A stretch of 64,000 nucleotides of DNA from Scolanthus callimorphus (taxonomy: Eukaryota > Cnidaria > Anthozoa > Actiniaria > Edwardsiidae): contig CM066915.1 of assembly GCA_033964015.1 (NCBI GenBank), positions 4,389,575-4,453,574 on the forward strand, in the 5' to 3' direction. The notes beneath the pieces were generated by a model. It had not been told where the DNA came from, ran no database searches, and worked only from the letters and a program-made list of their open reading frames with translations. Of the stretch, positions 6,164 to 50,018 are shown in pieces. A program made the position numbers and the translations under genes. The first letter of the stretch is position 1. Each line of letters opens with the position of its first letter.

Positions 6164-6191
6164 TAAGGGTATGATTCTTACCTGATTTCAT

Positions 6192-6862: not shown

Positions 6863-7957
6863 ATGGCGGTTGCAAAAGTACTGGAAAAGATATATTTCAA
6901 TCCAGAACATCCAGGAAGTTTTGGAGGAACAGAAAGACTTTATCGAGAAGCAAAAACTGTAAAGAAAAACCTAACCAGAAAACAAGTGAATGACTGGCTT
7001 GCCGAACAAGACAGTTACACATTACATAGAACAGCAGCAAAGCGTTTTCGCCGTAACAGAGTAATCGTATCATCTCTTAATGAAGAATGGTGTTCCGATC
7101 TCATGGATATGCAACCGTTGACCAAGTTTAACAAAAATTTCAAATATATTTTGGTAGTTATTGATGCACTTTCAAAATTCCTATATACTGTTCCCATGAA
7201 AGACAAGAAAAGTTCTACAGTCACCGATGCATTTAGCTCCATTTTACAAAAGTCAGGGGTTAAACCACAAAAAGTGTTTACCGATAAAGGAGGTGAATTT
7301 ACAGGAAAGCCATTCAAAAAACTCATGCACGATGAAGATATCATCTTTTTTACTAGTCAAAACGAAACCAAGGTTCCAATAGCTGAAAGAGTCATAAGAA
7401 CACTGAAAGCACGTCTATATCGTTATTTTACTTACAAAAATACCTACAACTACCTTGATGTTTTACCAAAAATAGTAAAGTCATATAACAATACCATACA
7501 TTCATCCACAAAAATGAAACCACGCGATGTTACCATTTTCAATGAAGACCAAGTATGGCATAATTTATATGACAATGATTTGATAAATGGAGAGCAAAAA
7601 TTCAAATTTTCTGTCGGGCAAAAAGTCCGTATCTCAAAAACTAAGACTCCGTTTGACAAGTCTTATGAGCCCAACTTTACCAAAGAAATTTTTACCATAA
7701 CACAACGCATAGCCCGGGATCCACCAGTATACAAGTTAAAAGATTACGATAATGAAGAGATCACTGGTGTATTTTATGAAAAACAGATGATTCCTGCAAT
7801 TCAGAAAAATGACGAATACGAAATCGAGAAGATCTTGGAAACGCGTGGGCGTGGCAGAAATTTGCAATATAAAGTTCACTGGAAGAATCATCATAAAAAG
7901 TTTGACTCATGGATAAATGCTTCACAACTGAAAACGATTGCGAAAGGAGACGATTGA
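6863..7957 (+). CDS. int: Polinton integrase (retroviral-type rve core plus chromodomain)
   Basis: Read from the internal Met at 6863, a 364-residue integrase; an in-frame upstream Met at 6815 gives a less typical leader. The N-terminus has the Polinton-type segment FNPEHPGSFGGTERLYR. The DDE core shows WCSDLMDM (D79), FTDKGGEF (D141) and AERVIRTLK (E175). The C-terminus from about residue 318 is a chromodomain (YEIEKILETR, YKVHWKN, DSWI), which in related integrases binds chromatin marks and can steer insertion. It would insert the element DNA into host chromosomes. It starts the plus-strand block and is followed after 21 bp by the putative minor capsid gene. The frame is open and the triad intact, so it could still be active. 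Confidence 0.94.
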   Translation: MAVAKVLEKIYFNPEHPGSFGGTERLYREAKTVKKNLTRKQVNDWLAEQDSYTLHRTAAKRFRRNRVIVSSLNEEWCSDLMDMQPLTKFNKNFKYILVVIDALSKFLYTVPMKDKKSSTVTDAFSSILQKSGVKPQKVFTDKGGEFTGKPFKKLMHDEDIIFFTSQNETKVPIAERVIRTLKARLYRYFTYKNTYNYLDVLPKIVKSYNNTIHSSTKMKPRDVTIFNEDQVWHNLYDNDLINGEQKFKFSVGQKVRISKTKTPFDKSYEPNFTKEIFTITQRIARDPPVYKLKDYDNEEITGVFYEKQMIPAIQKNDEYEIEKILETRGRGRNLQYKVHWKNHHKKFDSWINASQLKTIAKGDD

Positions 7958-7978
7958 ATTATCATCACATTTAGAGTA

Positions 7979-8737
7979 ATGGAAGAACAACATCAATTTT
8001 TTGTTATTTTACCAAGTAATGCGTCCATGGATGTCTTCCCTAACAATACACTGGCAAATTTTACAGTGAAACTACCAGAACCTATCGTACTACAAGGTCC
8101 ATGGGAAGTGGGACTACAATCTGTCATCTGGCCAAGAACATTCTACAATATTAAATCAGAGGAAAACCGAATCTACTTTGATCTTGGGGCTGGTTATGAC
8201 GAATTTGAAATATCGGAAGGTTACTATAATACTACAGAAGAGCTGATAACTCATATCAATGAAAACATTACAAAGATTAAAGGTTCTGAAAAAATCAATT
8301 TTGCTTATGATGTTCTATCAGAAAAAACTACCGTGGAATTAAAACAAGGTGGTAAAGTTACTTTAACTGAGTCTCTAAGCGGTATTTTAGGTTTCGGTGG
8401 AAAACGAATCGAGATAACACAAACAACCAAAAGTCCCTATGTCTGTGATCTTAATGGCGGAATTCAAACCATGTACATTTATTCTGATGTTGTAGGCTAT
8501 CAAGTAGTCGGTGATACGAAATCAAAACTACTTAAAATAATTCCAATTGAAGGAAAACACGGTAGTGTTATCTCAAAAATTTACGATAATCCACAATACA
8601 TTCCGGTTGAAACAAAAGCCTTTGAGAAAGTTTCCATCTATATATACGACGGTGCTGGGAGACCATTGGCATTTCAAAGAGGAAAGGTCATCGTTACACT
8701 ACACTTTAGATTACAACCGTTGTCGTACTTACGCTAG
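7979..8737 (+). CDS. Putative Polinton minor capsid (penton-like) protein
   Basis: 252 residues, beta-strand-rich, no membrane segment. The start has the pattern FFVILPSNASMDVFPNNTLA followed by FTVKLPEPI and GPWEVGLQSVIWPRTFYN. I associate this pattern with the small structural protein next to the major capsid in many invertebrate Polintons. The proposed role is the single-jelly-roll penton at capsid vertices. Position supports this: 21 bp after the integrase stop and 4 bp before the next start, inside the capsid block. Family recognition is from memory and was not searched. Structure prediction should show one jelly roll if the call is right. Confidence 0.7.
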   Translation: MEEQHQFFVILPSNASMDVFPNNTLANFTVKLPEPIVLQGPWEVGLQSVIWPRTFYNIKSEENRIYFDLGAGYDEFEISEGYYNTTEELITHINENITKIKGSEKINFAYDVLSEKTTVELKQGGKVTLTESLSGILGFGGKRIEITQTTKSPYVCDLNGGIQTMYIYSDVVGYQVVGDTKSKLLKIIPIEGKHGSVISKIYDNPQYIPVETKAFEKVSIYIYDGAGRPLAFQRGKVIVTLHFRLQPLSYLR

Positions 8738-8741
8738 AAAA

Positions 8742-9284
8742 ATGAGGGAATTGCACAGTTCTCCCACACATGAATACGCAAATTACTATGTTAGACAGGC
8801 ACTTCAACATGGGAATGGATTTCCAGTTTTTCGTGGAAGTGTATTTCAAAGGGGTCACGGTCAAAGAGGATTCGGTATAGGAAATTTTTTCAAATCACTT
8901 GTTCGCACCGCTTTACCATTCCTCAAAGAAGGTACAAAGAACATTGCAAAAACAGCAGTACAAACCGGAACTAACATGATGAATGATGTGATAGCTGGAA
9001 AGGATTTTAAATCATCTGCAAGGCAGCATCTTCAAAATGCCGGAACAGCCATAAAAAATCATTCCAGGGAAACAATCACACAAGCGCTGAAATCACAAAC
9101 TGGTTTGGGTAGAAAGCGTAAATCTAATCCATCAAAGAAAGCGAGACCAAGTAAAAAACAAAGAAAATTAGCACCAATGAAAAAAACTATAAAGAGAAAA
9201 AAGCCCAAACGAAACTCCACTCCATCGCGAGCTAGGAAACCGAAAGCATCACCTTTCTTGTCTAAGAATATTATAGGATTTTAA
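8742..9284 (+). CDS. Polinton pX/pVI-like basic core or membrane-lytic minor virion protein
   Basis: 180 residues from the Met at 8742, chosen because it lies 4 bp after the upstream stop; a longer ORF in the same frame from 8547 overlaps the minor capsid gene and is unlikely. Residues 22-47 are Gly-rich and hold three QxGxG motifs. Then comes an amphipathic stretch (GNFFKSLVRTALPFLKEG and following), and the last ~55 residues are extremely Lys/Arg-rich. This resembles the adenovirus-like pX/pVI family of Polintons, thought to bind packaged DNA or disrupt membranes after proteolytic maturation. It lies directly upstream of the major capsid gene with an 8-bp gap. Confidence 0.75.
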   Translation: MRELHSSPTHEYANYYVRQALQHGNGFPVFRGSVFQRGHGQRGFGIGNFFKSLVRTALPFLKEGTKNIAKTAVQTGTNMMNDVIAGKDFKSSARQHLQNAGTAIKNHSRETITQALKSQTGLGRKRKSNPSKKARPSKKQRKLAPMKKTIKRKKPKRNSTPSRARKPKASPFLSKNIIGF

Positions 9285-9292
9285 AGAAAATC

Positions 9293-10621
9293 ATGTCACT
9301 CGTCCATAGACTATCATCTGAATGTACAAAAGAGGAGCTAGATTTATTCAAGATACCCGCAACACAGACATCAATACTAGAAAAAGTGGATATTGATTAC
9401 CATCCCATCTCAACCCTAAGCTCGTCTACTGTAACCGAATTCAATGTTCCTGGCACAGAATACTACATCGATCCTGGGATGACAAGAATTTATGTAAGGG
9501 GCAGTATAAAAAATAACGATGGAACTGAATTAAAAAAGGGGTTAAAACTAAGCACAGTTAACAACCTTTTACACAGTTTATGGAAACAGGTTGACATTTT
9601 TGCAAATGGCACTCAAGTCTCACAAGCTACCGGTGGGTATGCAATTGGAGCGTATCTGGAGAACACCTTGAACTATGGAAAATCGGCCAAGGAAACTCAG
9701 CTTTCTACTGTAGTTTATGAAAAAGACACGGCTGGGAAAATGGATGAGGCAGACTTTACTAAAGCTGACACGAATGAAGGACTCAAAAAACGCAGTGAGC
9801 TTATTCAAGAATCACACGAGTTTGATTTGAGTGGTCCAATACATTCGGATATTTTTATGACAAATCGTTTAATACCCAGTTTTGTAGATCTCAAGGTCAA
9901 GTTAACACCAAATACACCAGAGTATTTTTTAATGTGCGGTGAAAATCCCGTAGGTAAATACAAAATCAATTTTTCAGAAGTCAAACTTATCATACGGAAA
10001 GTCAAACTGGGTGCGCATGTAATAGCTGGTATTGAAGCTGGTTTAACGAAAAGCCCTGTCTACATTCCAATCGAGAGGACCGATACAAAGGTTTTTACCG
10101 TTCCTGGAACAACACCATCTATACGAAAAGATAACATATTTAATGGAGTTATTCCGAATCAAATTATATTTGCAATGTGTGATGCCGCCGCACTTGACGG
10201 GGATTATTCTAAAAACCCATACAACTTTGACTTGTTTAACGCAAGTTCCGTATGCGTATATGTCGATGGGAAACAAACACCTAGCGCACCTATAAAATTG
10301 AATCTCACACCCTACGGTGGTACATTCATTCAAGCCTATGAAACCCTCTTCACTGGAACTGGGAAGTATCACTTTGACCAAGGAAATAACATTACACGTG
10401 ATGATTACTGGCAAGGATACGGAATATTTGTATTTGATCTGACACCTGACTCTTGTAGTAGCTCAGATCATCTTAATCTACGACAAAAGGGAAATCTTTC
10501 GATACAAATTTTTCTATCAAAACCTCTACAAAAGGCAGTGAATCTTGTATGTAGAGGGTATTTTTCTAACATTCTGGAAGTAGATAAAGAAAGAAATTGT
10601 TTGTACGACTACACAACATGA
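9293..10621 (+). CDS. Polinton major capsid protein (double jelly-roll)
   Basis: 442 residues, beta-rich, with the early motif FKIPATQTSI and the central HEFDLSGPIHSDIF followed by RLIPSFVDLKVKL. This pattern is characteristic of the invertebrate Polinton major capsid family, whose members are often annotated as F54H12.2-like. It would form hexon-type trimers of an icosahedral shell. It follows the core-protein gene by 8 bp and its TGA stop overlaps the protease ATG (ATGA at 10618-10621). The frame is open from end to end with no sign of decay. Confidence 0.88.
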   Translation: MSLVHRLSSECTKEELDLFKIPATQTSILEKVDIDYHPISTLSSSTVTEFNVPGTEYYIDPGMTRIYVRGSIKNNDGTELKKGLKLSTVNNLLHSLWKQVDIFANGTQVSQATGGYAIGAYLENTLNYGKSAKETQLSTVVYEKDTAGKMDEADFTKADTNEGLKKRSELIQESHEFDLSGPIHSDIFMTNRLIPSFVDLKVKLTPNTPEYFLMCGENPVGKYKINFSEVKLIIRKVKLGAHVIAGIEAGLTKSPVYIPIERTDTKVFTVPGTTPSIRKDNIFNGVIPNQIIFAMCDAAALDGDYSKNPYNFDLFNASSVCVYVDGKQTPSAPIKLNLTPYGGTFIQAYETLFTGTGKYHFDQGNNITRDDYWQGYGIFVFDLTPDSCSSSDHLNLRQKGNLSIQIFLSKPLQKAVNLVCRGYFSNILEVDKERNCLYDYTT

Positions 10622-11141
10622 ACACTGAACAACTCAATTACGTTATGGTACAAGACCTCAAGTCAAGGAAAACATTTTGTGGTGTGTTTCCCAGTGATGC
10701 ATTACCAACACGTATAGAACATTTACCATGTGGAATTATAGCAAACACAGATCCTTCAGATCAGAGGGGTAGTCACTGGGTAGCATTTTATTTTCCAAGT
10801 GAAAGAAATGGGGTAGGAGAATTTTTTGACTCGTACGGAAATCAACCTAATTTTTATTCTAGACATTTTGAAAAGTTGTTAGACAGGAACTGTGATAGTT
10901 GGCTTTGTAATACTCGTACATTACAAAGTTTTGGTTCTAGCACATGCGGACAGTATTGTCTGTTTTACTTAATGATGAAAAATAGAAACATGTCAATGAA
11001 AAAATCGTATCTTATTTTAGTAAGAATACAAGTGCAAATGATAGCCGTGTAGCAGAATTTATCAATAGGTTTTTAACCATGTACACGCACAAAAAAAGTA
11101 AACAACAACAAATATCACTTGCACGTAGAAAAACAACTTAG
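10618..11141 (+). pseudogene. pro: Adenain/Ulp1-type maturation cysteine protease, 3' end frameshifted
   Basis: The start at 10618 overlaps the capsid stop. The catalytic layout of adenovirus-type proteases is visible: GSHW (H53), FFDSYG (D71), Q103 and STCGQY (C110), with the seven-residue Q-to-C spacing of that family. The expected role is cleavage of virion precursors. The first frame stops at 11052, but after about residue 130 it becomes atypical. A second frame beginning near 11005 is open and protein-like until a stop at 11141, so a one-base change lies at or near the A-run around 11000-11005. The catalytic core lies before the break. It could be a real lesion in an old copy or a homopolymer assembly error. 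Confidence 0.82.
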
Positions 11142-11154
11142 CACCAGTGTGTAA

Positions 11155-11185
11155 TGTAAATCTTTATTTTGAAATAAAAATGTAG
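11155..11185. terminator. Back-to-back poly(A) signals between the convergent gene blocks
   Basis: TTTATT at 11163-11168 reads AATAAA on the minus strand, and AATAAA occurs at 11173-11178 on the plus strand. They lie between the protease stop on the plus strand and the 3' end of the 11211-11990 gene on the minus strand. The two blocks therefore appear to end within about 70 bp of each other. Confidence 0.6.
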
Positions 11186-11210
11186 ATTACATAAACATTC
11201 CTGTTGATAT

Positions 11211-11990
11211 TTAATAGTTCACCCATTTGGGGGTAATTGTCTTGTTGTTCAAGCCATATTTCCGTCTTGGAAGTTTAGATGATCTTGGTGTAGAGGGAGG
11301 TGTGGGTGGTAGTAATGGCAAGCCATCAGAGATTTCAGCACTCACGGGTGTTCCACCATGAATGGAAGATTTATATTGTTGTACAATCTTTCGTCTATTT
11401 TCATTGCGTAACAAATATTCAGGGATGTTGATTTTTGCTAGAGTTTTTGAGAATTTATCCCATCCTTTAGGGTTGAAGTGTTTTCTGGATTGAAGTTGAT
11501 CGTTAACCAAATCAATAACTGATGTCCCTGAGATTTTTTCACCACCTATCACAATCTGACCTGATTTATCCCATGAAACTTCGTTGGGGTTTGCTTTCAT
11601 TCTTGAAATCATGGCATTCGCTAATTTACGAGAGTTTCGTGGCACTGCATCTAAAATTTCTTGCTCACTCATCATTTCCGTTTTGTCCTGTTCTGAAACA
11701 GGTGATTCATCTACTTTTTCTTGTTGCTGGTTTGGTACGGAATCAATCATTCGAACAGTTGGAATCAGTTGTTTCTTTTGCTGGTGAATATTCAAGTAGC
11801 GCTGTAAGTCATTATTGTAAACTTGCATCTTTTGATCCGTGTTCAGATCATCACTTCCCAAAACATCATCCAGTTTCTGGTCAAGTCGTGTCAATGCTTT
11901 GGTATGAACAGATGTTTCTTGTTTTTGCCGTTTTTCCATTTGATTCATTAATTCCTCTGGAACAAGGACCATTCGTTTGGTATACTTCAT
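11211..11990 (-). CDS. Polinton-associated protein with coiled-coil N-terminus and Pro-rich tail
   Basis: 259 residues. The N-terminus KRMVLVPEELMNQM is followed by a charged helical region with VYNNDLQRYL, a middle alpha/beta segment (residues ~115-205) and a Pro-rich basic tail (PPTPPSTPRSS, ending TPKWVNY). I recognise it as a recurrent Polinton protein of unknown function. The YxxxLxRYL motif and the TPPxTP...W..Y tail recur at the C-terminus of the ATPase protein in the second element (44424-45835). Its ATG overlaps the stop of the upstream gene (ATGA at 11987-11990, minus strand), which suggests coupled expression. Confidence 0.78.
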   Translation of the reverse strand: MKYTKRMVLVPEELMNQMEKRQKQETSVHTKALTRLDQKLDDVLGSDDLNTDQKMQVYNNDLQRYLNIHQQKKQLIPTVRMIDSVPNQQQEKVDESPVSEQDKTEMMSEQEILDAVPRNSRKLANAMISRMKANPNEVSWDKSGQIVIGGEKISGTSVIDLVNDQLQSRKHFNPKGWDKFSKTLAKINIPEYLLRNENRRKIVQQYKSSIHGGTPVSAEISDGLPLLPPTPPSTPRSSKLPRRKYGLNNKTITPKWVNY

Positions 11991-12325
11991 GATTTCTTTC
12001 GATTAAATATTCTTTCAAGAGTTTCGAGAACTGGAGGTAATAATGTCAACAACAGTGAACCTCCAGATTGAACCAAATACTTCTTTTTCCTTTTTATAGG
12101 GACTTTCTTGAGAGACAAACCGTAGATATGTTTCCTGAACTTGGATAAACGTTTCTTCTGAGCTGGAGTTAACTGTACTGCTCCTTTTAAGAGGTTTAGT
12201 GCAATTTCAGAAATGCATCGTATTAAATCGTTATCACAATGTTGTAATAAAGCTTTGCGTTGTTTTGGATTGCATTTACTAAGGACTGATAAGTAGTCTA
12301 AATGCTTCTTTACTCGTTGAGACAT
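11987..12325 (-). CDS. Small conserved Polinton protein with C-terminal hydrophobic segment
   Basis: 112 residues from the Met at 12325 (MSQRVKK); an upstream Met at 12346 is less likely. It is helical and basic: PKQRKALLQ, a central LNLLKGAVQLTPAQKKRL, then KKKYLVQSGG and a hydrophobic LLLTLLPPVL. This type of small protein recurs in Polintons, and the ORF at 43713-44039 in the second element shares its plan (L.KG.P.Q, ICE.ALN/ICYNF, IRGCVPIT/LKGAVQLT, a Gly motif and hydrophobic LPP ending). Function is unknown; a virion or membrane-associated role is a guess. It sits 38 bp after the ATPase stop in the same block. Confidence 0.76.
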   Translation of the reverse strand: MSQRVKKHLDYLSVLSKCNPKQRKALLQHCDNDLIRCISEIALNLLKGAVQLTPAQKKRLSKFRKHIYGLSLKKVPIKRKKKYLVQSGGSLLLTLLPPVLETLERIFNRKKS

Positions 12326-12363
12326 GATATAGAAATGTACAATCAATCCGATTGCAACAGAAT

Positions 12364-13011
12364 TTAAGCGAATTTAGAAAATACAACTTCTCGCTCGTTA
12401 GGAAAAATGTTGGTTCTTAATTTTAACTCAGTTGGAGTACTTGGGTGTAAATCCAAAATTAAGTATCCATAGTTTCTAGAAACGGCATCCTGAAAACTTT
12501 CCATTGCATGGTGATATTCATTTTTTCCTGAAAAAGCCTGTCTAAGTAGATTTGAAATCCCTAAATTATCACGTTTGTTTTGAAAGACGACAAAATAATG
12601 ACAATTAAGAGATATGGTACGTGCGTGTTTTCCTGGTGGAAAAGGGTTTTGTACAATATAAATGACCGTAATTTGCAAATGATGCGAATGGATAGTCATA
12701 ATTTCTGACATTCTAGGATCATTTGAGCAACCAACCATTTGATCATCAATTAAAAGTATTCCTGGTTCATTATTAAAGATTTCGAGAACATTTTCTGGCA
12801 AACCACTCACAAAAACCAATTGAGGTATAGCTTCTTCCATTTCAATAAACCAGTCTTGAAAAGCACCATAGCAATAAACATTCTTTTTTACTTCGCCGCG
12901 TACCATATCTTCAAGATGGTGTAAAAATTTACGACACCAGAATGATTTTCCAGACTGGGTTGGTCCACAGACCATAACTGTAGTTGGGAGTTTAAACCGT
13001 GTGTCAATCAT
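12364..13011 (-). CDS. Polinton packaging ATPase (A32/FtsK-like)
   Basis: 215 residues from the Met at 13011, chosen because IDTRFKLPTTVMVCGPT directly precedes the P-loop; an upstream in-frame Met at 13059 adds 16 residues. Walker A is GPTQSGKS (residues 16-23) and Walker B is GILLIDD (84-90). A later QNPFPP and SLNCHYFVVFQNKRD fit the genome-packaging ATPase family of Polintons and related viruses. The expected role is driving DNA into the procapsid. The C-terminus ends soon after the core, whereas the homologue in the second element has a zinc finger before and a long tail after it. The frame is intact. Confidence 0.93.
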   Translation of the reverse strand: MIDTRFKLPTTVMVCGPTQSGKSFWCRKFLHHLEDMVRGEVKKNVYCYGAFQDWFIEMEEAIPQLVFVSGLPENVLEIFNNEPGILLIDDQMVGCSNDPRMSEIMTIHSHHLQITVIYIVQNPFPPGKHARTISLNCHYFVVFQNKRDNLGISNLLRQAFSGKNEYHHAMESFQDAVSRNYGYLILDLHPSTPTELKLRTNIFPNEREVVFSKFA

Positions 13012-13120
13012 GATGTGAACCTTTACATAAAATGATTCGGATAAAATATGAAACCACACTTATAAACTCTAGTAAGATAAATGAATTTTATTACAAAAAC
13101 AAAGCATGAATACAAAATTC

Positions 13121-13726
13121 TTAAAAACCGTTTCCAAAATCTGAGTAATCGTTTAACTTTGCGATGATCATATCTTCTAACTGCTCCCTTCGTCTAAATA
13201 TAATTCCTAATCTAGTGTCTTTACAATTATACTTGATCATTTCAAGTCCATTTACTGACGGTTTTAACAACTGAAAAGCCTGTTCCATTTCCTTCGTGAG
13301 TTCATCGTCGTTAATGTTCTCGATTGCTTCTTGAAAATATTGACTCACTTTGGTTCTGTTTTCAATCATCAGACAGTCATGGTGCCACTGGGAAGGATCA
13401 AAGATTTCACAAGCATAGCAGTTTTTGTTTGTCAGTTTTACTATCTCTTCGGCTGCTAAGTCACAGTAGACTTTAGTGAGAGTATTCTCAATAAGTTCAT
13501 GGCGGAGTGTTGTACTGGGTTCTTTTTCCTCTGCTCCATTCTTTTCGTTCGGAAAATCAAGAGAAATGTACGGTAGGATTGCGTCAATTTCTTTTTCCTG
13601 GATAAAGTTGGAAAAGGCTGTTGCAATATTTTCATGAAAACTCATAAATTTTTCTCCCGTCTCCAAGACTTCATACTCCCAGCAACTGATTGTAGGTTCC
13701 TTTCTCAAGATTGTCAAACGATCCAT
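13121..13726 (-). CDS. Polinton protein with C..C..H..C motif, function unknown
   Basis: 201 residues from the Met at 13726; the longer ORF starts at 13771. The N-terminal ~70 residues are mixed alpha/beta. A helix (VYCDLAAEEIVKLT) leads to the cluster NCYACEIFDPSQWHHDCL, a likely metal site. The Cys-rich ORF at 46061-46510 in the second element has the same order: V.DL helix, C..C, PS, CL. The two are probably distant relatives. The C-terminal ~45 residues are helical. It is the most upstream gene of the minus-strand block, 109 bp before the ATPase start, and diverges from the gene at 13915. Confidence 0.68.
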   Translation of the reverse strand: MDRLTILRKEPTISCWEYEVLETGEKFMSFHENIATAFSNFIQEKEIDAILPYISLDFPNEKNGAEEKEPSTTLRHELIENTLTKVYCDLAAEEIVKLTNKNCYACEIFDPSQWHHDCLMIENRTKVSQYFQEAIENINDDELTKEMEQAFQLLKPSVNGLEMIKYNCKDTRLGIIFRRREQLEDMIIAKLNDYSDFGNGF

Positions 13727-13914
13727 ACTTGTAAATATGTGTAAAGATAGGAGAGGAGAGTGATGAATCAAATGTGCGACGGTGAGTTATATGCTAGAGA
13801 ACCACGTGATCAAATGCACACCCATTTAAAAAACAAAGCTAACTACGTCACATCAGGTATAAAGGTTCTTTCACATTCGAGTATATGCCACTCCTAAACG
13901 TTTTTTCAAAAGCC
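13727..13914. promoter_or_regulatory. Bidirectional promoter region with TATA box
   Basis: The gap between the minus-strand block and the rightmost plus-strand gene. TATAAAGG lies at 13858-13865 on the plus strand, about 30 bp before a plausible start of transcription near 13888. This makes the ATG at 13915, not 13885, the likely start of the plus gene. The same gap contains CACGTG (E-box) near 13803 and TACGTCA (CRE-like) near 13844. A TATATG-type AT motif near 13785 could serve the minus block. Confidence 0.55.
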
Positions 13915-14676
13915 ATGAAGCTGAGAAGTGGTAAAATTTTGATCAATCAGGAAAGCATGAACAACACAGCCAATCTCTTAGAGAAACTAAGGAAGATCAA
14001 GGAATTCTATCAAGCCGAGCACGAAAACAGGGTTAAGGAGATAAAACTCTTTTTTGAGTTTTGTTTCTACTTTATCGTAGAAGCATTGGAAAGGAAAGAA
14101 CTGCTTAAGCAACTTGAGGGTGAAATTGATGTAGGAATGATGATCAACTATCGCATGCAAACGCAATTTTATCAAGAAAAACTAATGGAACTATTCCCGC
14201 ATGTAATGATGGAAGAGTACTCGATAACTCCAAATAAAGCGTGGAAACTGATGTTGGAGAACTTCTTGAACAATTTGTATCTTGGAGATGTCTATACTAA
14301 CTACAAGGCATTTCAAGAAAGAGTACAAGATGACATACCATGGGATAATGACTTTGAAAATAGAACACTTTATTTACGAGAACTCGCCGCATGTATGATT
14401 GAAAATTATTTCCGTTTTTACTATAGTAAAGATATCACTCCTGAAAATTGGAAAGGAATTGTACATCAAATTGTGTTAGAATCAAAATCCGATTGCTGTT
14501 ACATTTCAGAAATAGGAAACGGAATCACGGTAGAACGAATACCTATAATATACTTTTGGCAACCACCTTTGTATGAATATCTTGTTGTAAACACAGGTGA
14601 AAAATTCGTTACCCCTGAACAAAATACAAAGAAAGCAGCTTTACTGCATTATAGAATCACAGAAAACTCTATGTAA
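13915..14676 (+). CDS. Rightmost Polinton gene, unknown helical protein
   Basis: 253 residues if read from the Met at 13915 (MKLRSGK); the ORF is open from 13885. A basic N-terminus is followed by ~150 residues of charged helices (KIKEFYQAEHENRVKEIKLF and onward). The C-terminal part is beta-like with KSDCCYISEIG, IYFWQPPLYEYLV and VNTGEKFVTPEQNT. The phrase TGEKF also occurs near the start of the divergently transcribed 13121-13726 protein, so the two might be related, but this is weak. I do not recognise the family. Its last ~12 codons lie inside a repeat that is duplicated downstream. An AATAAA at 14816-14821 could end its transcript. Confidence 0.7.
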   Translation: MKLRSGKILINQESMNNTANLLEKLRKIKEFYQAEHENRVKEIKLFFEFCFYFIVEALERKELLKQLEGEIDVGMMINYRMQTQFYQEKLMELFPHVMMEEYSITPNKAWKLMLENFLNNLYLGDVYTNYKAFQERVQDDIPWDNDFENRTLYLRELAACMIENYFRFYYSKDITPENWKGIVHQIVLESKSDCCYISEIGNGITVERIPIIYFWQPPLYEYLVVNTGEKFVTPEQNTKKAALLHYRITENSM

Positions 14677-40394: not shown

Positions 40395-41610
40395 AATGGA
40401 GTAGTCATTATTTATGTTTGTGGGGAGGATAACAGCTTTTTCACGCCAGTTTAGAGGAAAGTCACAATTTTTTTTTCTTGAGCCAGTTAGGGGGAAGGGT
40501 CACATTTTTTGTCTACCAAAACAGTTCTATTAAAACAACAAGTCCATAATATCACTTTTATCCTGAAATTCATCATTCTCATACCCAGAGCTCCCTAGCT
40601 CTGGGGACATCCATTTGTGGGCCGGATTGGCTGATTTTGAACGGTGGGAGAGAAACAAGTCTTTCTGGTCTTTGAGGGCCATTTAGCAACAGCCATCAGC
40701 CTATTTTTCGAGCCAGTTTAGAGTGAGGGCACGTGTTCTCTACCAAACAAGTTCTGTTACAGTCAAAAGACATTAAGCGTGCCTCTCCCCTAGAGTTGAA
40801 TATTCAATTCATTATTCCATTATTGATTTCATTATTCAATCCAAAATTGCCTTTTTCAATTCAATATTAAAAATGTTACAACCGTTGCAAATCGAAAACT
40901 CGTTCTCTGTTTATGATTCAGTTGCAACGCACACCCTTTTCGAGCAACAAGCGTGCAGAATGTTACGAGAACAGACATACAGGCACCAAAGTGTAAGAAA
41001 ACGTCCGTTGTCATAGAATCGTAGATAAAAAACGAGTTCCGAATTGCAACGGTTATACAATTTGTTTATTAAATATTAACATGCTAAAATTGAAAAATGC
41101 TTTTTTGGATATTCACAAATGCCGCCCAAGCCGTGTCTCACAAGTAGCAAAATGCAGCGCGCGCTTTATTAACAGTTCGTTCGACAAAATGTCCCAGATC
41201 TACCGACATGTAGCGCGTGCGTTCGTTATAGCTGGAATCGTACATTGAATATTCAACTCTGTTGGAGTGGGGGGCACGCTTCATGTCTTTTGACTGTAAA
41301 GCGGGGATTCTGAGGTTGTGATATACTACCCGTTTCGTCTTGCGGTTTGCGTTCGCCATATCTTTATTTACTCTTTATGAACTATGAAATGAAAATACAC
41401 AAAGACACCAATCTGTTTCCTTCTAATAAAACAAATTGAGATCAAAACAAATAGTTCTCCTTTGCAGAGAACTATCCTAAAGAGCAGCACTCATTTTTTA
41501 CTAATAATAATTGACCTTCTGATGTAGGTTTAGCGAGGATACAGCTTTTTAATAAAGGCTGTCGGTTTGAAACCTACACCGAAGGGCAGTATGGGTAGAA
41601 ACCAAATATC
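40395..41610. other. NLR intron sequence, no gene
   Basis: Short inverted segments near 40840-41110 (AATTCAATATTAA... and the later TTAAATATTAACATGC) suggest a decayed MITE. No coding signal. Confidence 0.4.
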
Positions 41611-41997
41611 AGTTGAACGCCACAATAGCAAGCTGTCAAGGGCATTTCCCCTCTTTTGTTCTAGGGATCAACTCCTATTGTTCTAGGATTAGCTCCTATT
41701 GTTTGAGTCTTAGGAACCATGAGCAACCCGAGAAACCAGAGCAACCGTCGGAAATGACGTCAGATGAGCGCCTATTGTTAGAGGGATTAGAGCAACCCCT
41801 TGGGAATTCCGCAGCGGATTGGTCGATGACTCATCCCCTTGGTAAACACGTGTCCCGGAAGTCATCCCCTTGGGGAATTCTTTTGTTGATCTGGATTGGT
41901 CGATGACTCATCCCCTTGGTAAAGATGAGAAACCATGAGAAACCGCTGCAAGTCGATGATGGCTCATCACCTTGGGTCCTGATCTGCAAGTCTGGGG
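41611..41997 (+). repeat. Left terminal inverted repeat of the small Polinton
   Basis: Contains short internal direct repeats: GATGACTCATCCCCTTGGTAAA-type words occur twice (near 41824 and 41903). Matches the inverse of 46644-47020 with a few substitutions and indels. Confidence 0.9.
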
Positions 41998-42405
41998 TCA
42001 TAATATTTGAGAAATGTGGGGACGAATAATAGCGCCACCATCGCGAGGGTCTGGGACTCTAGCGTGACAGTCATGTCAATAATTGGCCGACTTTTGATGA
42101 ATATAAACTCGAGTAAGCTTTGAAAAACCTCCACTCATCTTGACAGCAGAGAAGTGTAGTCATAAAAAAAACACTTGGTGGAGCTATGTACTCTTACTTC
42201 GTGGCAGCAGCTTTATTTTTGTTTGTTGTCAAAGACCTACAAGTTTCGCTAAATTGGGGAAGTAAGAACCAAGAACCGGACCAATTTTGCTTCTGTTGTT
42301 TTTGTAAAAACAAGCACCTGATATCTGGGATACCTTCAGAGCGATCTTGAGAGGATATTTTTAAGCATCGTTATAGGAACATTGGCGGAACTTTAAAGAA
42401 ACGAA

Positions 42406-42665
42406 ATGAACGTCAAGCAAGCGCAAATACTGGAGATGATTAAACAAAATTTGCATAAGCTACGATTAGTAAATAAAGATATGGTCATTCGAACAGGACA
42501 CGAACTTATATGTTGGATGAATCGTTTATCCAGCGATGGATAGACGATAGCTTAGAAAGCATTTCGGGAGATACTCAAGAGTTATCGGTCCGCATATGCC
42601 CTCAATTTAAGAAGACCAACTTCTTAGAGAGGAAACACTGCGACGCGTGCCATACTCTTTTGTGA
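42406..42665 (+). pseudogene. Small plus-strand gene of the small Polinton, frameshifted
   Basis: A 45-codon frame from the ATG at 42406 stops at 42543. A second frame, open from about 42480 and ending at 42665, looks like its continuation and ends with a Cys cluster (RICPQF, then HCDACHTLL). A frameshift between about 42480 and 42510 would explain this. The combined product would be ~85 residues. AATAAA at about 42670 gives a poly(A) signal. Family not recognised. Confidence 0.45.
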
Positions 42666-42743
42666 TGTAAATAAAACTCACTTGAAAAGTCAATAAACCT
42701 TCTTTATTAAAGCATCGACAAATACAGACGAGTTAACGTGTTG

Positions 42744-43652
42744 TCAGGGTAACATACTAGCGGTGTTAAACCGTACAAAGGTCAAATGGAAAAAACTCTC
42801 GAATAATAAAATTACATCAATTTTCCTCATTTTGTAATGAAAATAATGCGCCCGTCCACAGTTGTCACAGTCTTGCCAGCAATCCTTGTAAAACTGATGA
42901 TGTAGCAAAAATGGCTTCGAACAAATGTCGCATGTAACAAGTTTTCCAACAAGGTTAAAATTATAATCATCTGACCACGAACACGTGGGACATAGGGCTA
43001 AGACCATTGACTTCGTTTCGGGAAAGTCGCAATAATCACACGGCAGTGTGTTTGGTTCATATCCACCACCTGATTGCACTAACTTCTTGCTCCCCTCTAC
43101 AAATTCGTCCTCGCTCATCGATTCTTCATCTGTCTCTAAAGATTCGTGTTCCAAGTCTATGATTCGTTTCAACACATCCTTATTTTGAATAAGGGTTTTA
43201 TTAATTCCGAGATCTGCTAAACCCTCGATAAAGGTATTTATTCCTTTAGGCTTTCTTGTTTTGACGTTAAACGGTAATAGTACATAATTGAGTAATGAAG
43301 CCATATCGGTTCCTGGGATTCTCTGTTGGTTTCGAGTCATTTCATCTGATAAGTTCCAATAAAGAATGTTTTTAGAAGACACAAATGAACGAAGTAAGTC
43401 GCGCGCTACATCTTTTGGAATTTTTTTCGATATTTGTTGTAGCATTTCGTCTACCGATGTCTGGTTTTCATCGATATCGCTCTGACTTTCACTCTCGGAA
43501 TCACTCGTGCTGTGATCATCTGAAGATTCCGCATCACTACCACTAGTGTCGCTTTCACTATCCAAGCTGGAAGTTTCAGTCTCAGACTCCTCCTCCTCCT
43601 CCTGAGAAACCTCCTCACTCTCATCGGTCTCTGACATTCTTCTTTTACTCAT
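42744..43652 (-). CDS. Acidic protein with C-terminal zinc ribbons
   Basis: 302 residues. The first ~75 are an extreme Ser/Glu/Asp tract (EEVSQEEEEESETETSS and onward). A helical middle (residues ~80-190: DVARDLLRSFVSS, NQQRIPGTDMASLLNYVL) follows. The C-terminal third has LVQSGGGYEP and then paired cysteines: PCDYCDF, LCPTCSW, TCDICSKPF, DCWQDCDNCGRAH, fitting two zinc ribbons. It may bind nucleic acid; the acidic tract could mimic DNA or engage histones. The family was not recognised. A minus-strand AATAAA lies at about 42700-42705. The frame is intact. Confidence 0.7.
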   Translation of the reverse strand: MSKRRMSETDESEEVSQEEEEESETETSSLDSESDTSGSDAESSDDHSTSDSESESQSDIDENQTSVDEMLQQISKKIPKDVARDLLRSFVSSKNILYWNLSDEMTRNQQRIPGTDMASLLNYVLLPFNVKTRKPKGINTFIEGLADLGINKTLIQNKDVLKRIIDLEHESLETDEESMSEDEFVEGSKKLVQSGGGYEPNTLPCDYCDFPETKSMVLALCPTCSWSDDYNFNLVGKLVTCDICSKPFLLHHQFYKDCWQDCDNCGRAHYFHYKMRKIDVILLFESFFHLTFVRFNTASMLP

Positions 43653-43712
43653 GTTATTCCTTTCTGATAGACTGCTCAGCGTGATATGACAAGATTTGTA
43701 GTGTGTCTGTAT

Positions 43713-44039
43713 TTATGCCAAAAACAAGGGCAGGGCTGCAAAAAGCGGCGGAAGTATGTCTTTTACTAAGCCACGCCCTTCTTGAGCAATTCGTCTCTTC
43801 TTATCTCTAAATGGGGTAGAAGCATCAGTCAAATCCTTGAGAAGATCTAAGTGCTCTTTAATTGCTTCTTTTTCTATTTTAGTTATGGGCACACAACCCC
43901 TTATAAAATTGTAGCAGATCTCACAGAGGGTGAGCACTTGTTCGGGATTAGCACTCGCTAAAATGTAACCCTTCTGCTCCGGCGAGCCTTTGTGTAAGAG
44001 GTGAAGATAAGGCAGATTGTTTCTCAGTAACTTTGACAT
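43713..44039 (-). CDS. Small conserved Polinton protein (relative of the 11987-12325 product)
   Basis: 108 residues: LPYLHLLHKGSPEQKGYILA, then TLCEICYNFIRGCVPITKIE, a basic KKRRIAQEGRGLVKD and a hydrophobic LPPLFAALPLFLA end. The order and spacing match the 112-residue Polinton 1 protein, so both belong to one family. The ATG lies ~60 bp from the start of a 300-bp polypurine tract that separates it from the divergent ATPase gene. Function unknown. Confidence 0.75.
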   Translation of the reverse strand: MSKLLRNNLPYLHLLHKGSPEQKGYILASANPEQVLTLCEICYNFIRGCVPITKIEKEAIKEHLDLLKDLTDASTPFRDKKRRIAQEGRGLVKDILPPLFAALPLFLA

Positions 44040-44099
44040 GGTGTGTTCTCGAAGGTTTCTATAATATGATTCGTTTTGTTTGATATGGGATATTTATAT

Positions 44100-44410
44100 G
44101 TCCCATTAGGAGCTGAGGAGGAGGAATTGAGGCGGTTTTGAGGAGGAGGAGGAGGAGGTATTGAGGCGGTTTTGAGGAGGATGAATTGAGGCGGCTTTGA
44201 GGAGGAGGAGGAGTTTTTGAGGAGGAGGAGGTTTTGAGGAGGAGGAGGTGGTTTTGAGGAGGAGGAGGAGATTTTCAGGACATTTTGAGGAGGAGGAGGA
44301 GGAGGAGGAGGAGGAGGAGGAGGAGGAAGACGAGGAGTTTTTGAGGAGGAGGAGGTTTTGAGGAGGTGGAGGTTTTGAGGAGGAGGAGGAGGAGGTTTTG
44401 AGGAGGAGGC
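44100..44410 (+). repeat. Polypurine GAGGAGGA/TTTTGAGGAGG tract between divergent genes
   Basis: About 300 bp of GAG/GGA triplets with interspersed TTTTGAGG, including an uninterrupted (GAG)n run at about 44286-44322. It lies exactly between the divergent starts of the 43713-44039 and 44424-45835 genes. The proline- and serine-rich minus ORFs that cross it are artefacts. Confidence 0.92.
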
Positions 44411-44423
44411 AAGGAAGAATATA

Positions 44424-45835
44424 ATGTATGATATTTTCAAGAGTCGTCATTGCTTTCCAAGACGCCAAAGAAGCAACACGTTATGCCCGAAATGTGGAAA
44501 AGAGTTTTCCAGAAGTGATAACCTTAAATGTCATATGGATAACCAACATAACAATCTCAAGCCACCGACCTATTTTACCACACGTGAGCCCAACTCGTCA
44601 TGTGGCCCCTTTCAACTTCAGCACCCGTTTACAGCGATCATTTCTGGTATGACCGGAACGGGAAAGACGGTGTGGGTACAAAATTTACTAGAAACGCTCA
44701 GACGATGATCAACCCACCCCCGCAAAGAATAGTGTGGTGTTATTCTCAATGGCAGCCTGCCTATGATGCAATGATTAACGCCATTCCCGGAATTGAGTTT
44801 CATAAAGGGATCCCGCAACACGTGGATGAGGACTGGTACTTCGACTCCCAAATAAACAATATGATTCTCCTAGATGATCTCATGTCGAACACGGGATCCG
44901 ATAAGAGAGTGTTGGATCTGTACATTTCTGGGTCTCATCACAGAAATCTCTCTGTAGTGAACCTTGTACAAAATCTGTATTTTCAATCAAAAATTGGAAG
45001 GACCATCTCCCTTAATTCTCACTATCTGGTGTTGTTTAAAAACCCCAGAGATAAACTACAAGTGTTGACTCTGGCAAAACAGATGTACCCTGGAAACACA
45101 GAAACATTCATGAAAAAATATGACGAAGCCGTCATGCGCCCTTATGGATATCTGTTTATCGATTTGAAGCCAACAACAAAAGACGAATGCAGGCTGAGGA
45201 TGAACATTCAACCAAGCGACAAAACTAGTTACCAATCCTTTGCGCGGTCAAGTCAGGGAGAGCGGTCAATGATCAATTACTTTCAAAAACAATCGTATCT
45301 GCAACCTGCAGTACTCAACAGCATGCATGAAATGGACGAAGAGATGGAAAATGTGTTGAATCAAAATTCGTTGCCGGCCGATGTGCTTATGAAAGAGTAT
45401 GACACGTTACTAAACAGATACCTGGATCTGCAAAAACAGACAAGTCGTGCCCCCATGGCAACCCGCCCACCACCTCCAGAACCAACCGCAAACGTAAACA
45501 GAGAACCGCAACTCATTGCTTCGCCCCAACCACAGTCTATACCACAAGGAATACCATCAACATCATTTCCAACACCACCCAAAACACCCGCATCATTTAC
45601 GACACCTAAATCGAAAAAATCACCACCCAAAGCGGTGTGGTTTCAATACGAAAATGCGAATCCAAAGAAGGATATTGGACCTCTAATGAAACAATACATG
45701 AAAGAGCAAAAGAAAGTTCCCAAATTGGCTCCGGCGTTTGACACTCCGCCATCTAGTAGTGTAACCGATCATCTCCTTTTAAAAAGCATGACAGAGCCAG
45801 AACAGAAAAGAAAGTTAGGCGATCAAAGAGACTAA
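44424..45835 (+). pseudogene. Zinc finger-packaging ATPase with fused C-terminal Polinton tail, one frameshift
   Basis: The first frame (44424-44708) holds a C2H2 finger (CPKCGKEFSRSDNLKCHMD..H) and the Walker A loop SGMTGTGKT. Its reading breaks at about 44700-44708 and the second frame carries on from about 44709 to 45835 with INNMILLDD (Walker B), VQNLYFQSK, SLNSHYLVLFKNPRDK and YGYLFIDLKPTTKDE, the packaging ATPase core. The last ~190 residues contain LMKEYDTLLNRYLDL and TPPKTPASFTTP...AVWFQY, which parallel the separate 11211-11990 protein of Polinton 1. The ORF caller's start at 44600 is out of frame for the N-terminal half. The break could be a lesion or an assembly error. AATAAA follows at about 45912. 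Confidence 0.8.
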
Positions 45836-46060
45836 ATGAAACTAGAATCAAGTTATCTCCTAAATTTGCAAATGCTTAATTTAATGTAGAAGATCGACTT
45901 TGAAGTTATGTAAATAAAGTCCTATAAGTCCGTGACATTGTCAATTATTAATCTTTCGGGATCAAATAAGGATGACATATTCAGGGTTTGTTTACTTTTT
46001 ATTGCACCACAACATACTTTCGAACAACCATGTTTGTATACAGTACTCTAAAACAGTTCA

Positions 46061-46510
46061 TCACTCGTTGCTACTTTTTCTCTGCAAAAGAGTCTGAGAT
46101 ACTTTCCAGGCTGTTCGTAGGGCGATGAATTTCTGTTGTTGTATCGACCACGCAAAAACATCTCTCCAAGCCTTTTTGTAAAGTTCCGGTAAATATTTTT
46201 TCCAAGAGGAATCCAGAGGTATGTCCAGAATACTACACACTTCCTGCACCGTTTCCCATATACGATTTTCGTCTACTTGGCGTTTGGCTTTTTTGTAAAA
46301 TAACCTCCAACTTTCTCTTTGTTCAGACAAACAGTATTCACTGGGATTGCCGACTAGACATTCCTCGCACGGGCAACTCTTGAGCTCTTCAGGCATAGCC
46401 TTTTCGCATAAATCGGCAAACACTAGGTGACATGCTTTCTTTAACAAACGTTCAATCTTTGCCTCCTCTCGGTTGTCGACAAAGACTACGGTTGGTAGAG
46501 CGTTCGCCAT
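46061..46510 (-). CDS. Cys-rich small Polinton protein (relative of the 13121-13726 product)
   Basis: 149 residues, helical. HLVFADLCEKAMPEEL precedes the cluster SCPCEECLVGNPSEYCL, matching the order V.DL helix, C..C, PS, CL of the Polinton 1 protein at 13121-13726. The rest (RLFYKKAKRQVDENRIWETV, KKYLPELYKKAWRDVFAW) is amphipathic. A minus-strand poly(A) signal lies at about 45990. The ATG lies ~130 bp from the right TIR. Function unknown. Confidence 0.65.
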   Translation of the reverse strand: MANALPTVVFVDNREEAKIERLLKKACHLVFADLCEKAMPEELKSCPCEECLVGNPSEYCLSEQRESWRLFYKKAKRQVDENRIWETVQEVCSILDIPLDSSWKKYLPELYKKAWRDVFAWSIQQQKFIALRTAWKVSQTLLQRKSSNE

Positions 46511-46643
46511 GTTCTTTCACGTATTAGTTTTAACGTAAAGCACGATCAAGAGCATGAATGCGTAAATGAACATCGCATGTCTAAACCGTTTTATACTCTA
46601 TACCACCACTAAAATAAATCTAAAAATAGATCAAATATTATTA

Positions 46644-47020
46644 CCCTAGACTTGCGGGTCAGGACCCAAGGGGACGAGTCATCGACTTGCAGCGGTTTCT
46701 CATGGTTTCTCATGTTTACCAAGGGGATGAGTCATCGACCAATCCGGATCAACAAAAGAATTCCCCAAGGGGTGACTTCCGGTGTTTACCAAGGGGATGA
46801 GTCATCGACCAATCCGCTGCGGAATTCCCAAGGGGTTGCTCTAATCCCTCTAACAATAGGCGGTCATCTGACGTCATTTCCGGCGGTTGCTCTGGTTTCT
46901 CGGGTTGCTCATGGTTCCTAAGACCCTAACAATAGGAGCTTATCCTAGAACAATAGGAGTTAATCCCTAGAACAAAAGAGGGGAAATGCCCTTGACAGCT
47001 TGCTATTGTGGCGTTCAACT
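46644..47020 (-). repeat. Right terminal inverted repeat of the small Polinton
   Basis: Inverse of 41611-41997. It contains GGGGATGAGTCATCGACCAA twice (near 46722 and 46794). Ends CGTTCAACT at 47020. Confidence 0.9.
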
Positions 47021-47254
47021 GTCATAATATATCTACTAATATCTCATCTTAACCCTGTCTGCCTCCCACGTTCTGTGAAACAAATCTGTTTGAAGACAGT
47101 AATATCCAAAAGTTAACAACTGTAACCACGAATTTTAGGTTCAGGCTGTCTAGTGTTGGCAGGAAACCTTGACTGACGAAAATTGCTGCCTGGTTAGTGC
47201 ATATTATCACAAGGGATTATATTTCTACTAATTCTTGGCTTTCTCTGCTTGCAG

Positions 47255-47915
47255 AGGGATGCATCAGGCAACTAGAGGAGCAGTTCAAAGAGAAAATCTT
47301 GCAGGACACTCATTTCCCCGGAAAGCTTCTATCATCACCAGACGTGCCACGTGTCGAGTTTGATATAATCTACACAAACCCAGTTATTCAAGAAGACTTT
47401 AAGGTGTACGATACGAAGGACATAAGCAAGAAAGGAAAGTATGCTAAGCCCACAAAAAACTCCAGCAAAACAACGGAAGAGCTGTTCGACCAAGGTGCGA
47501 CAAGAATACTGCTCATGGGCCGAGCGGGAATCGGAAAAACTCTATTTGTGCAGAAGATAGCAAGAGACTGGGCTAAAGGTAACCTGGTTAAAGACGGAAG
47601 ATATCAGTTTCTATTCTGTTTCGCGTTTAGGCAGCTTAATTTGATCGATGAGGATTTGACACTTCATCAATTTCTCAACCGTGCCTCGTTCAGTCCTGAA
47701 GTAAAAGAAGAAATGCTAACTGTCATATGTCAAAACCCCAAGTCTGTCCTTCTTTTGATGGACGGCTACGATGAATTCAAGTATCCCTTCAACAGCAAAA
47801 TCGAAAAATCAAAAGAAGACGGCAAAATGAATGTTTCGACTTTGTGCTACAAAATTGCGTCTGGAAAACTTTTATCTGGTGCCACTGTGATGTTTACGAC
47901 TCGCCCTGAAAAAGT
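47255..47915 (+). CDS. NLR gene, NACHT exon
   Basis: An acceptor CTTGCAG at 47248-47254 joins in phase to the coiled-coil exon. The frame encodes a helical lead-in (CIRQLEEQFKEKIL), a linker, then Walker A GRAGIGKT and Walker B LLLMDGYDEF, followed by the sensor-1-like TTRPEK, which is the NACHT P-loop NTPase of NOD-like receptors. It would oligomerise on ligand sensing in the cytosol. The frame hits a stop at 47923-47925. The conserved next piece (ITFGTEAEILGFTKEKV) is present but in a different frame at 47933-48043, so the domain is broken. Confidence 0.85.
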
Positions 47916-50018
47916 AAGCAACTGAAAAAATCATTACCTTCGGCACTGAGGCGGAAATTCTTGGATTCACAAAAGAGAAAGTCAAGGACTACATTATGCA
48001 CTTCTTTAAAGATAAAAAAAAAGAAATGTTGTGTGCAAACACGTAACAAGTAATGACAACCTTTTAGGGTTTTGTTACGTGCCGGTGAACTGTTACTTTA
48101 CGTGCTTGGTTTTTGACTGGTTTGAATGGAAAAAACCCTCAAATCTACCACGAACTGTTTCTGACATTTATCAAGGACTTCTGACAAAGTTTCTTCTAAA
48201 TCATCATCCAGACCATAGAAGCAAAAAAGAAGAAGGTGGAAGCTCTGAACTGAATCCTAGGGTTAAAGAAATGCTAAATAATTTAGCTGGGCTCGCTCTC
48301 CAGTTTCTGGATACAAGCAAGTATGTGTTCACAAAACGCGATCTCGAGAACTCTCGCTTGGCCGAGGAAGAAATTCAACAACTCGTCACCAGTGGCCTTA
48401 TCCATTGCATGCCTGCCGTAAGAACTAGCGATGACCCGCTCGCTACAGAGACGCAATATTGCTTCATTCATCTGACCCTACAAGAGTTTCTTGCCGCTCG
48501 AGCTCTGTTGGAGAAGAGAGACATAGAGCGAATTCAGCAGTACAGAAACCCTGTTGTTCTACAGTTCATGTGTGGTATTCTGCGAAGCACCCACAAAGAC
48601 GAAAAAACGGCTGAAATGTTAGACACGATCGTGAGGACACTGTGGGGCCGCGATCAACTTTTAGCAATCAACTGCATGTACGAATATCAGGATAAGCATT
48701 ATGCAAGTAACTTCCTGGAGAGTGTGAAGACTGTTGAACTTAAACCCGACAATCGTCTCAATGTTTCAGACTGCATGGCGTTGTCTTTCATCCTAGTTTG
48801 CGGCGCTAGCTCTCTCAACGATGTAACACTATTGGGGAAAATACCTGCTACAGGTGTTAAACATTTAGGGAAAGCACTTTGCAGTGAGGAGTGCTCTCTG
48901 AGTACATTAGAGTTATCTCTTGTTGCAGCGGGAATGAGACATTTAGCTGAAGCTCTAGGCAGCGAACATTGCAGGCTGACAACGCTACGCTTAAGAGGGC
49001 AAGGCAAAGAATTCGATGAACTCCTATGTAAGGCACTTACTAGCGGCAATAGCAAACTAACGGCGCTAGATTTACCGAATAGGCGCAAACAAGGTGATGT
49101 TGAAGCAAAACGTCTATGGACCGCTGTAAGTAATGTTAAGTGCAGACTAACGAAATTAGGTTTACAATTTAACAGTATAACGGCTGGAGGGCTGCTGTTT
49201 TATCAAAAGCACTCGAGAGTGGTCAATGTCGCCTGGAAGAGTTAGATTTAAAACACAATTACATAGAGGATAAAGGTGCTGAACATCTAGGGAATGCTCT
49301 CAGTAGCGGTAAATGCAGTTTAACAAAATTAGATTTATGTAATAACAGAATAGGGGATGAAGGGGCTGTTTGTCTTTCAAAAGCACTCGCGAGTGTTGAA
49401 TGTCGCCTGGAAGAGTTAAATTTAGGAGACAATAATATAGGCGATAAAGGTGCTGAACAACTAGTGCATGCTCTCAGTAAAGTTAAATGCAGTTTAACAA
49501 AATTAGATTTACGTGATAACAAAATAGGGGATGAAGGGGCTTCGTCTCTATCAGAAGCACTCGTGAGTGACAAATGTCGCCTGCAAAAATTAAATTTAGG
49601 AAACAATAATATAGGCGATATAGGTGCTGAACATCTAGGGAATGCTCTCAGTAGCGGTAAGTGCAGTTTAACAAAATTAGGTGTTGGTAACAGAATAGGA
49701 GATAAAGGGGCTGCTTTTCTATCAGAAGCACTCGCGAGTGATGAATGTCGCCTGGAAGAGTTAGATTTAAATTACAATAATATAGGCGACAAAGGTACTG
49801 AACATCTAGTAAATGCTCTCAGTAAAGTTCGATACAGTTTAACAAAATTAGGTTTAGAACATAACAAAATAGGGGATGAAGGGACTGCTTGTCTATCAAA
49901 AGTACTCGCGAGTGATGTATGTCGCCTGGATATAGGTGCTGAACATCTAGGGAATGCTCTCAGTAGCGGTAAGTGCAGTTTAACAAAATTAGGTGTTGGT
50001 AACAGAATAGGAGATAAA
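47916..50018 (+). pseudogene. NLR gene, NACHT C-terminus and leucine-rich repeats, frameshifted
   Basis: Reading frame changes at about 47917-47932, again at about 48015-48045, and at about 49190. The middle piece (48046-49190) gives the NACHT-associated winged-helix region (VSDIYQGLLTKFLL) and helical domain, then degenerate LRRs. From 49194 to 50018, eight or more ~28-residue RNI-type LRRs follow (LTKLDLRDNKIGDEGA; LEELDLNYNNIGDKG), with two alternating repeat types. The LRR array would be the sensor. The frame ends where a MITE interrupts it. Several independent breaks make a pseudogene likely. Confidence 0.82.

Follow-up and report, generated by a model that had tools for sequence, protein, structure and literature searches.

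In this study, we describe short satellite elements in the genome of Scolanthus callimorphus, which insert as whole units bounded by AG-type ends and 6-bp duplications and which, judging from their gene content, are probably non-autonomous, gene-carrying elements dependent on Polintons. The window analysed here is a stretch of 64,000 nucleotides (C5:4389575-4453574 of the 597-Mb genome of 302 contigs), and it holds one copy of the satellite as well as a resident Polinton at 566-14676 with an apparently full gene set. An earlier note on this stretch had read the copy as a non-autonomous Polinton satellite, and this reading is supported by the copies in the genome, their gene order, their target duplications and their constrained frames. 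Polintons are defined by AG-type ends, long terminal repeats and 6-bp target duplications, and all three were found in the satellite.

The window copy extends from 41611 to 47037 (5427 bp), and the 6-bp target duplication AATATC is present at both borders (41605-41610 and, identically, 47038-47043). The left terminal inverted repeat (41611-42010, + strand) starts with AGTTGAAC, without the outer 17 bp kept at the right end. In the right repeat (46631-47037, - strand), the complete terminus AGTAGATATATTATGAC (47037-47021, - strand) comes first, followed by AGTTGAAC, and the left end accordingly opens at the inner AG, 17 bp inward. The repeats are about 400 bp long, with complementarity of 94% (I1), 98% (I2) and 87% (I3) in the repeat analysis of the window, and the left and right repeats of this copy differ by 6.3%. 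A complete element with long terminal repeats, as the earlier note had claimed, was thus borne out, with the right end at 47037 rather than 47020, as the outer terminus at 47021-47037 lies 17 bp past the end given there. The idea that the element has no target duplication was rejected once the outer 17 bp were recognised at element ends, and the presence of AATATC on both sides despite the short left end fits a single insertion of a left-shortened molecule. A second copy, L017, also begins at the inner AG (L017:2306), 17 bp inward of the usual left end; its flanks match at 5/6 positions (GATTAC vs GATTAT), and the target duplication of the window copy is exact. In both copies, it looks as though the DNA had lost the outermost part of one end prior to integration. 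Directly adjoining the satellite, ORFs resembling NACHT/LRR-like receptors were seen by eye at 47197-49245.

First, the satellite is present in many copies. The 400-bp terminal repeat gave at least 43 matches in its own genome (best 40 of 217 candidates scored), and a 193-aa piece of the ATPase gave 150 matches among the best 150 of 1040 candidates scored, 58 of them at 89-100% identity and 92 at 52-63% (counted by eye). Among the matches listed, 41 ATPase matches at 90-100% identity come ahead of the first at 61%, and 32 of the high-identity ones cover the whole query, 13 of which have open frames of 484-500 aa with no stop. The 40 genomic stretches analysed (L numbers) were picked among the top-scoring matches to the repeat and the ATPase. 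When these stretches and the window were counted together, with L010 excluded as a duplicate of L009, the order and orientation gA(-), gB(-) and zinc-finger ATPase(+) were identical in all 28 copies having the three genes. Identical 6-bp duplications were found in 17 of 20 rows, which measure about 4.9-5.8 kb; 16 of these are independent (L009 and L010 being one duplicated locus), and AATATC of the window is additional. The remaining three rows are L028 (4/6 match, probably no true pair) and, without the outer left terminus, L017 and the window copy. The possibility of a unique locus or an assembly oddity was ruled out by the dispersed copies with differing flanks. Within each of the copies L031, L032 and L036, the two repeats are 99.5-99.7% identical to each other (the median identity between left repeats of different copies is 89.8% in 136 pairs), and these near-identical pairs are counted as evidence of apparently recent movement. 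L009 and L010 (C1:21.12 Mb and 20.13 Mb) show the same insertion with the same near flanks about 1 Mb apart and represent either a segmental duplication or an assembly artefact. Larger repeat pairs were also considered as full-length parents. The pairs of 10 kb (C2:31.2 Mb) and 15 kb (C12:1.41 Mb) were rejected because they are copies of this satellite whose ATPase or gA is interrupted by an insertion, and a 21-kb pair on C10 was rejected as a full Polinton, its end stretches L027 and L028 having no recognised Polinton ORF of at least 100 aa and no match to 12 Polinton proteins. L028 also holds a 5.3-kb stretch (1667-6973) between satellite-type repeats with no satellite gene match.

Second, the satellite carries a compact set of genes. 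In the window copy, gA (302 aa, 42744-43652, - strand) has an acidic Ser-rich N-terminus and a Cys-rich C-terminus, and its last ~30 residues sit in a different frame in several copies. It is followed by gB (108 aa, 43713-44039, - strand), which is predicted to be all-helical, and by a GAG/GGA-rich degenerate repeat tract (44129-44421, + strand; families D1 and D2) between the divergent gB and ATPase. The part of the ATPase gene with the C2H2 zinc finger and Walker A lies at 44424-44708 (+ strand), where the frame stops in the window copy only, and the remaining packaging-type ATPase lies at 44711-45835 (+ strand). Since these two ORFs are one frame in 28 of the 29 copies tested and split in the window copy alone, four genes were counted, not the five of the earlier note, and the window copy is a decayed family member with its ATPase frame split. 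The last gene, gD (149 aa, 46061-46510, - strand), is an ORF with no assigned family. In 9 of 13 copies inspected, its slot holds a protein of 105-107 aa that matches Pfam PC4 (4.8e-6) barely above the cut-off (26.4 bits vs 25); PC4 is a single-strand DNA-binding family. Among the 28 ordered copies, 16 have gD and 12 do not; nine of the latter carry the PC4-type gene instead, and L022 has gD in the adjoining stretch L023. When the gB model, for which one of five structures was confident (91.8 vs 64.4-72.2), was compared by Foldseek, GasderminX of a turtle adintovirus was the sole viral match below E 0.001 (E 3.5e-6, probability 1.00, TM 0.85, 31% identity), and by predicted fold and sequence kinship gB belongs with the adintovirus GasderminX family.

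The genes of an autonomous Polinton were not found in the satellite. No polymerase, integrase, protease or capsid family was matched in Pfam (six ORFs) or PHROGs (five ORFs), where Pfam has no model detecting capsid proteins even in the window Polinton and very distant capsid forms may escape. When 12 Polinton proteins were compared with 41 satellite records by tblastn (E 0.01), no polymerase, integrase, protease, penton or major capsid was found; the ATPase was matched in 34 of the 41 records, a 263-aa end gene in one (L048) and otherwise none of the proteins, and as this search misses gA and gB, it is blind to distant kin. For B-family polymerase and RVE integrase, the ORF family searches and tblastn in the 41 records agree, and the polymerase and integrase of the window Polinton, used as controls, both match Pfam; for capsid proteins and the adenovirus-type protease, the result comes from tblastn in the same records. 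The absence of these four kinds of gene noted earlier from the window copy therefore held in these searches. With no genes found for copying, integrating or shell building, the satellites probably ride on larger Polintons of the same genome.

The resident Polinton was useful for comparison. Its polymerase (566-4816), integrase (6863-7957) and protease (10618-11052) were assigned by Pfam matches, and we take 7979-8737 to be the penton and 9293-10621 the major capsid, both by recognition with no Pfam match. The minus strand at 11211-13726 carries, as further ORFs, the genes for a 259-aa and a 112-aa protein, the ATPase gene (12364-13011) and a 201-aa gene. Its terminal repeats were not found within the stretches compared. 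The capsid gene has at least four further matches at 100% identity elsewhere in the genome (matches listed), and several capsid matches of 95-100% identity within 18 kb at C16:2199355-2217282 represent a Polinton cluster or fragments. A 259-aa ORF inside the Polinton (5384-6163, - strand), leucine-rich and with a membrane-anchored look by eye, is possibly a captured host gene.

The satellite ATPase is 38% identical to that of the Polinton (BLASTP 2e-35), which places it with the FtsK/A32-type packaging ATPases; the Pfam models Pox_A32 and Adeno_IVa2 match the satellite-type ATPase, both below their cut-offs. gB is a homologue of the 112-aa protein (27% identity, 8e-9), and gA shares a homologous domain with the central part of the 259-aa protein (26%, 6e-6; profile probability 95.9%). 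The N-terminal helical domain of the same 259-aa protein recurs as the C-terminal extension of the satellite ATPase (profile probability 96.8%, E 2.3e-10, 65 columns; pairwise just 0.022). In the model of the 259-aa protein, the N-terminal helices and the middle domain are predicted with confidence, and the model gave no match in the structure library. The earlier statement that the satellite genes have relatives in full Polintons thus holds for gA, gB and the ATPase in the window Polinton; a possible kinship of gD to the 201-aa protein scores 0.052 by BLASTP and 3.5 by profile, with no tblastn match. The order of gA, gB and ATPase is as in the window Polinton, yet the ATPase is inverted and one domain sits in a different protein. 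Since its ATPase is inverted, 38% identical and joined to another protein's domain, the satellite is no simple deletion of the resident Polinton. Its interior is not collinear with that of the window Polinton, at protein identities of 26-38%. Other possible parents were checked through the matches listed. Of 150 satellite-type ATPase rows, 0 have a listed capsid or polymerase match at a distance of up to 12 kb, and 1, a decayed row, has one at up to 20 kb. The zero is suggestive, as the control is weak: neither list is complete, and 12 of 94 capsid rows have a listed polymerase match at up to 12 kb.

These results bear on whether the genes matter at all. In a passive, MITE-like deletion derivative of a Polinton, the ends alone would matter and the genes would be left-over baggage, as could be suggested by the missing core enzymes, by the frames broken in many copies including that of the window, and by the repeat-bounded stretch of L028 with no satellite genes. 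However, the ATPase and gB evolve at dN/dS far under 1. Median pairwise dN/dS was 0.27 for the ATPase (464 pairs), 0.28 for gB (299 pairs) and 0.33 for the zinc finger (494 pairs), and 0.50 for gA (275 pairs) and 0.49 for gD (105 pairs); the pairs are non-independent, and decayed copies inflate the ratios. In a site test on up to 20 copies, hand-picked as less decayed, the shared variants of the ATPase were 13 nonsynonymous and 19 synonymous, against 0.79 nonsynonymous expected (p 3.5e-6), and those of gB were 1 and 5 (p 0.003); the test was weak for gA (p 0.047) and gave little information on gD. Shared and singleton variants were alike (Fisher p 0.42), so that the site test gives no contrast of active evolution with post-insertion decay. 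Purifying selection acts on the ATPase and on gB, and more weakly on gA. In addition to this constraint, the gene order constant in 28/28 copies, the inverted ATPase with its foreign domain, beyond the reach of one deletion, and a second family, which has gA, gB and the ATPase as well, the last in an intact frame of 453 aa, make a passive derivative unlikely. The view of the earlier note that the locus is no random deletion scar agrees with its multiple copies, its inverted ATPase and the domain of another Polinton protein that it carries, and the similar-size copies with the same gene order and conserved frames that it had asked for exist, at 4.9-5.8 kb and with target duplications and constraint.

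The second family was examined at one locus, L049, which is 1 of the 92 listed rows at 52-63% identity. Its repeats are about 760 bp long, its ends are AGTAGTATAG, and it is flanked on both sides by ATTATA. On the minus strand it has relatives of gA (7e-35) and gB (6e-22), and on the plus strand the intact ATPase, in the same order as in the first family; its gA matches the Polinton 259-aa protein by tblastn at 7e-5. Relatives of a satellite-type ATPase also occur in the anthozoans Oculina patagonica and Actinostola (names among 120 relatives listed).

The outer termini of the first family are variable. After AGTAGA, the next 11 bp differ between copies, with kinds including TATATTATGAC/G, TAGGATACAAG, GGGAGACGGAG and TATATTACACC. 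The left and right outer termini of the same copy agree in 17/17 rows with exact duplications, and those of the interrupted copy L024/L026 differ by one base. Terminus kinds and right-hand gene types (gD or PC4) are intermixed on the ATPase tree (by inspection, no statistics). The agreement of the two ends together with the intermixing on the tree suggests that one end of an element is copied onto the other and that elements exchange ends.

One terminus, AGTAGATAGGATACAAG, points to candidate helpers. It is present in 6 of 20 duplication-tested rows and has 36 exact genome matches, compared with 0 for the reversed control. Among these matches are thirteen facing pairs; eight of the pairs span 5.0-5.6 kb, five span 13.3-27.3 kb, and two of the larger pairs, of 13.5 and 15.3 kb (C12:1353018-1366556 and C2:16782215-16797471), hold a major capsid match, at C12:1361826-1363154 (40%, no stop) and C2:16792740-16794050 (39%, two stops). 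The other three large pairs have no capsid match among the matches listed, and one of them encloses the satellite L048. By sequence comparison, the ends of some satellite copies are thus common to capsid-bearing, Polinton-size elements of the same genome. About 220 bp of the repeat of the C2 element match an older satellite branch, and its first kilobase matches satellite repeats of L042 (94%, 189 bp), L048 (left 90%, right 75%) and L041 (88%, 113 bp), with shorter matches elsewhere. At L048:812-1530, next to the left repeat, there is in two frames a relative of the 263-aa gene that lies outermost in the window Polinton (48-53%, E 2e-57); it looks as though the satellite had acquired the end of a Polinton along with the first gene. 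The C12 and C2 elements are candidate helpers, singled out by the shared terminus and the capsid match. The search for a helper through the terminal repeats, as the earlier note had advised, therefore gave a terminus common to two capsid-bearing elements, although their exact 17-bp terminus is of a different type from that of the window copy; AGTAGATATATTATGA is the terminus relevant to helpers of the window copy's own type.

The same elements could be partners rather than hosts. In a divided (multipartite) Polinton, the satellite would supply packaging proteins that its partner needs, and the two would be mutualists. The ATPase/gB/gA module of the satellite is a cluster in the window Polinton, and none of the listed satellite-type ATPase rows lies inside the two capsid-bearing elements, as this arrangement would have it. 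Nevertheless, the window Polinton owns ATPase, 112-aa and 259-aa genes itself, and we consider such a division of labour quite improbable.

For a satellite dependent on Polintons, the following mechanism can be proposed. A helper Polinton would copy the satellite by protein priming at the satellite's terminal repeats, insert it by means of the helper integrase and carry the satellite DNA in the helper capsid. The zinc-finger ATPase, partnered by gA and gB, may select satellite DNA for helper capsids; gA and gB are proposed as partners since the corresponding genes neighbour each other in the resident Polinton, and the zinc finger is the obvious candidate for recognition of the satellite DNA. 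By analogy, the proteins might instead interfere with Polintons, with packaging of satellite DNA being secondary, as the assembly of the helper could be disturbed by proteins that are divergent relatives of packaging proteins; in phage satellites, packaging and interference go together, and interference as the main role seems very unlikely here. Building on the helper-dependent reading, we tentatively propose, with some doubt, a whole class of Polinton satellites with their own packaging machine, in which the ATPase would have gained a zinc finger and a partner domain to fill helper capsids, and termini and the right-hand gene (gD or PC4) would be swapped to follow helpers. At least two families of this class would be present here, and it may reach other anthozoans.

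Compared with known systems, the satellite has both familiar and distinct features. It resembles Polintons/Mavericks (Polintoviricetes) in its AG ends, long repeats, 6-bp duplications, homologous ATPase, gB and gA domain, and differs in its size of 5.4 kb, in that polymerase, integrase, protease and capsid were not found, and in its ATPase, which is inverted, has a zinc-finger N-terminus and bears as C-terminal domain a part of the 259-aa protein of the window Polinton. PICI-like phage satellites are short and helper-dependent, with their own packaging-type gene and no capsid gene. The Scolanthus satellite is also short, with a packaging-type gene, no capsid gene found and an apparent dependence on helpers, whereas it resides in an animal genome with Polinton-type integration, and a redirection of packaging is only proposed for it. 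Adintoviruses are linked to it by the GasderminX fold of gB, and virophages and adintoviruses by the logic of a hyperparasite; in contrast to the satellite, in which none was found, virophages encode capsid proteins (PMC11071308). Tlr elements share the packaging ATPase with the satellite and were once proposed to be non-autonomous Polinton derivatives, and, in contrast to the satellite, they encode major and minor capsid proteins (PMC4028283).

In conclusion, the satellite bears on the question of Polinton particles. Mavericks/Polintons encode capsid genes, and their particles were so far unobserved (PMC8097293). If a satellite retains packaging-type genes under selection, this would speak, as an independent line of evolutionary evidence, for Polinton particles that carry DNA, and the 5.4-kb satellite DNA is something to seek inside such particles. 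If this reading is true, the logic of capsid-borrowing satellites extends to virus-like transposons of animals.
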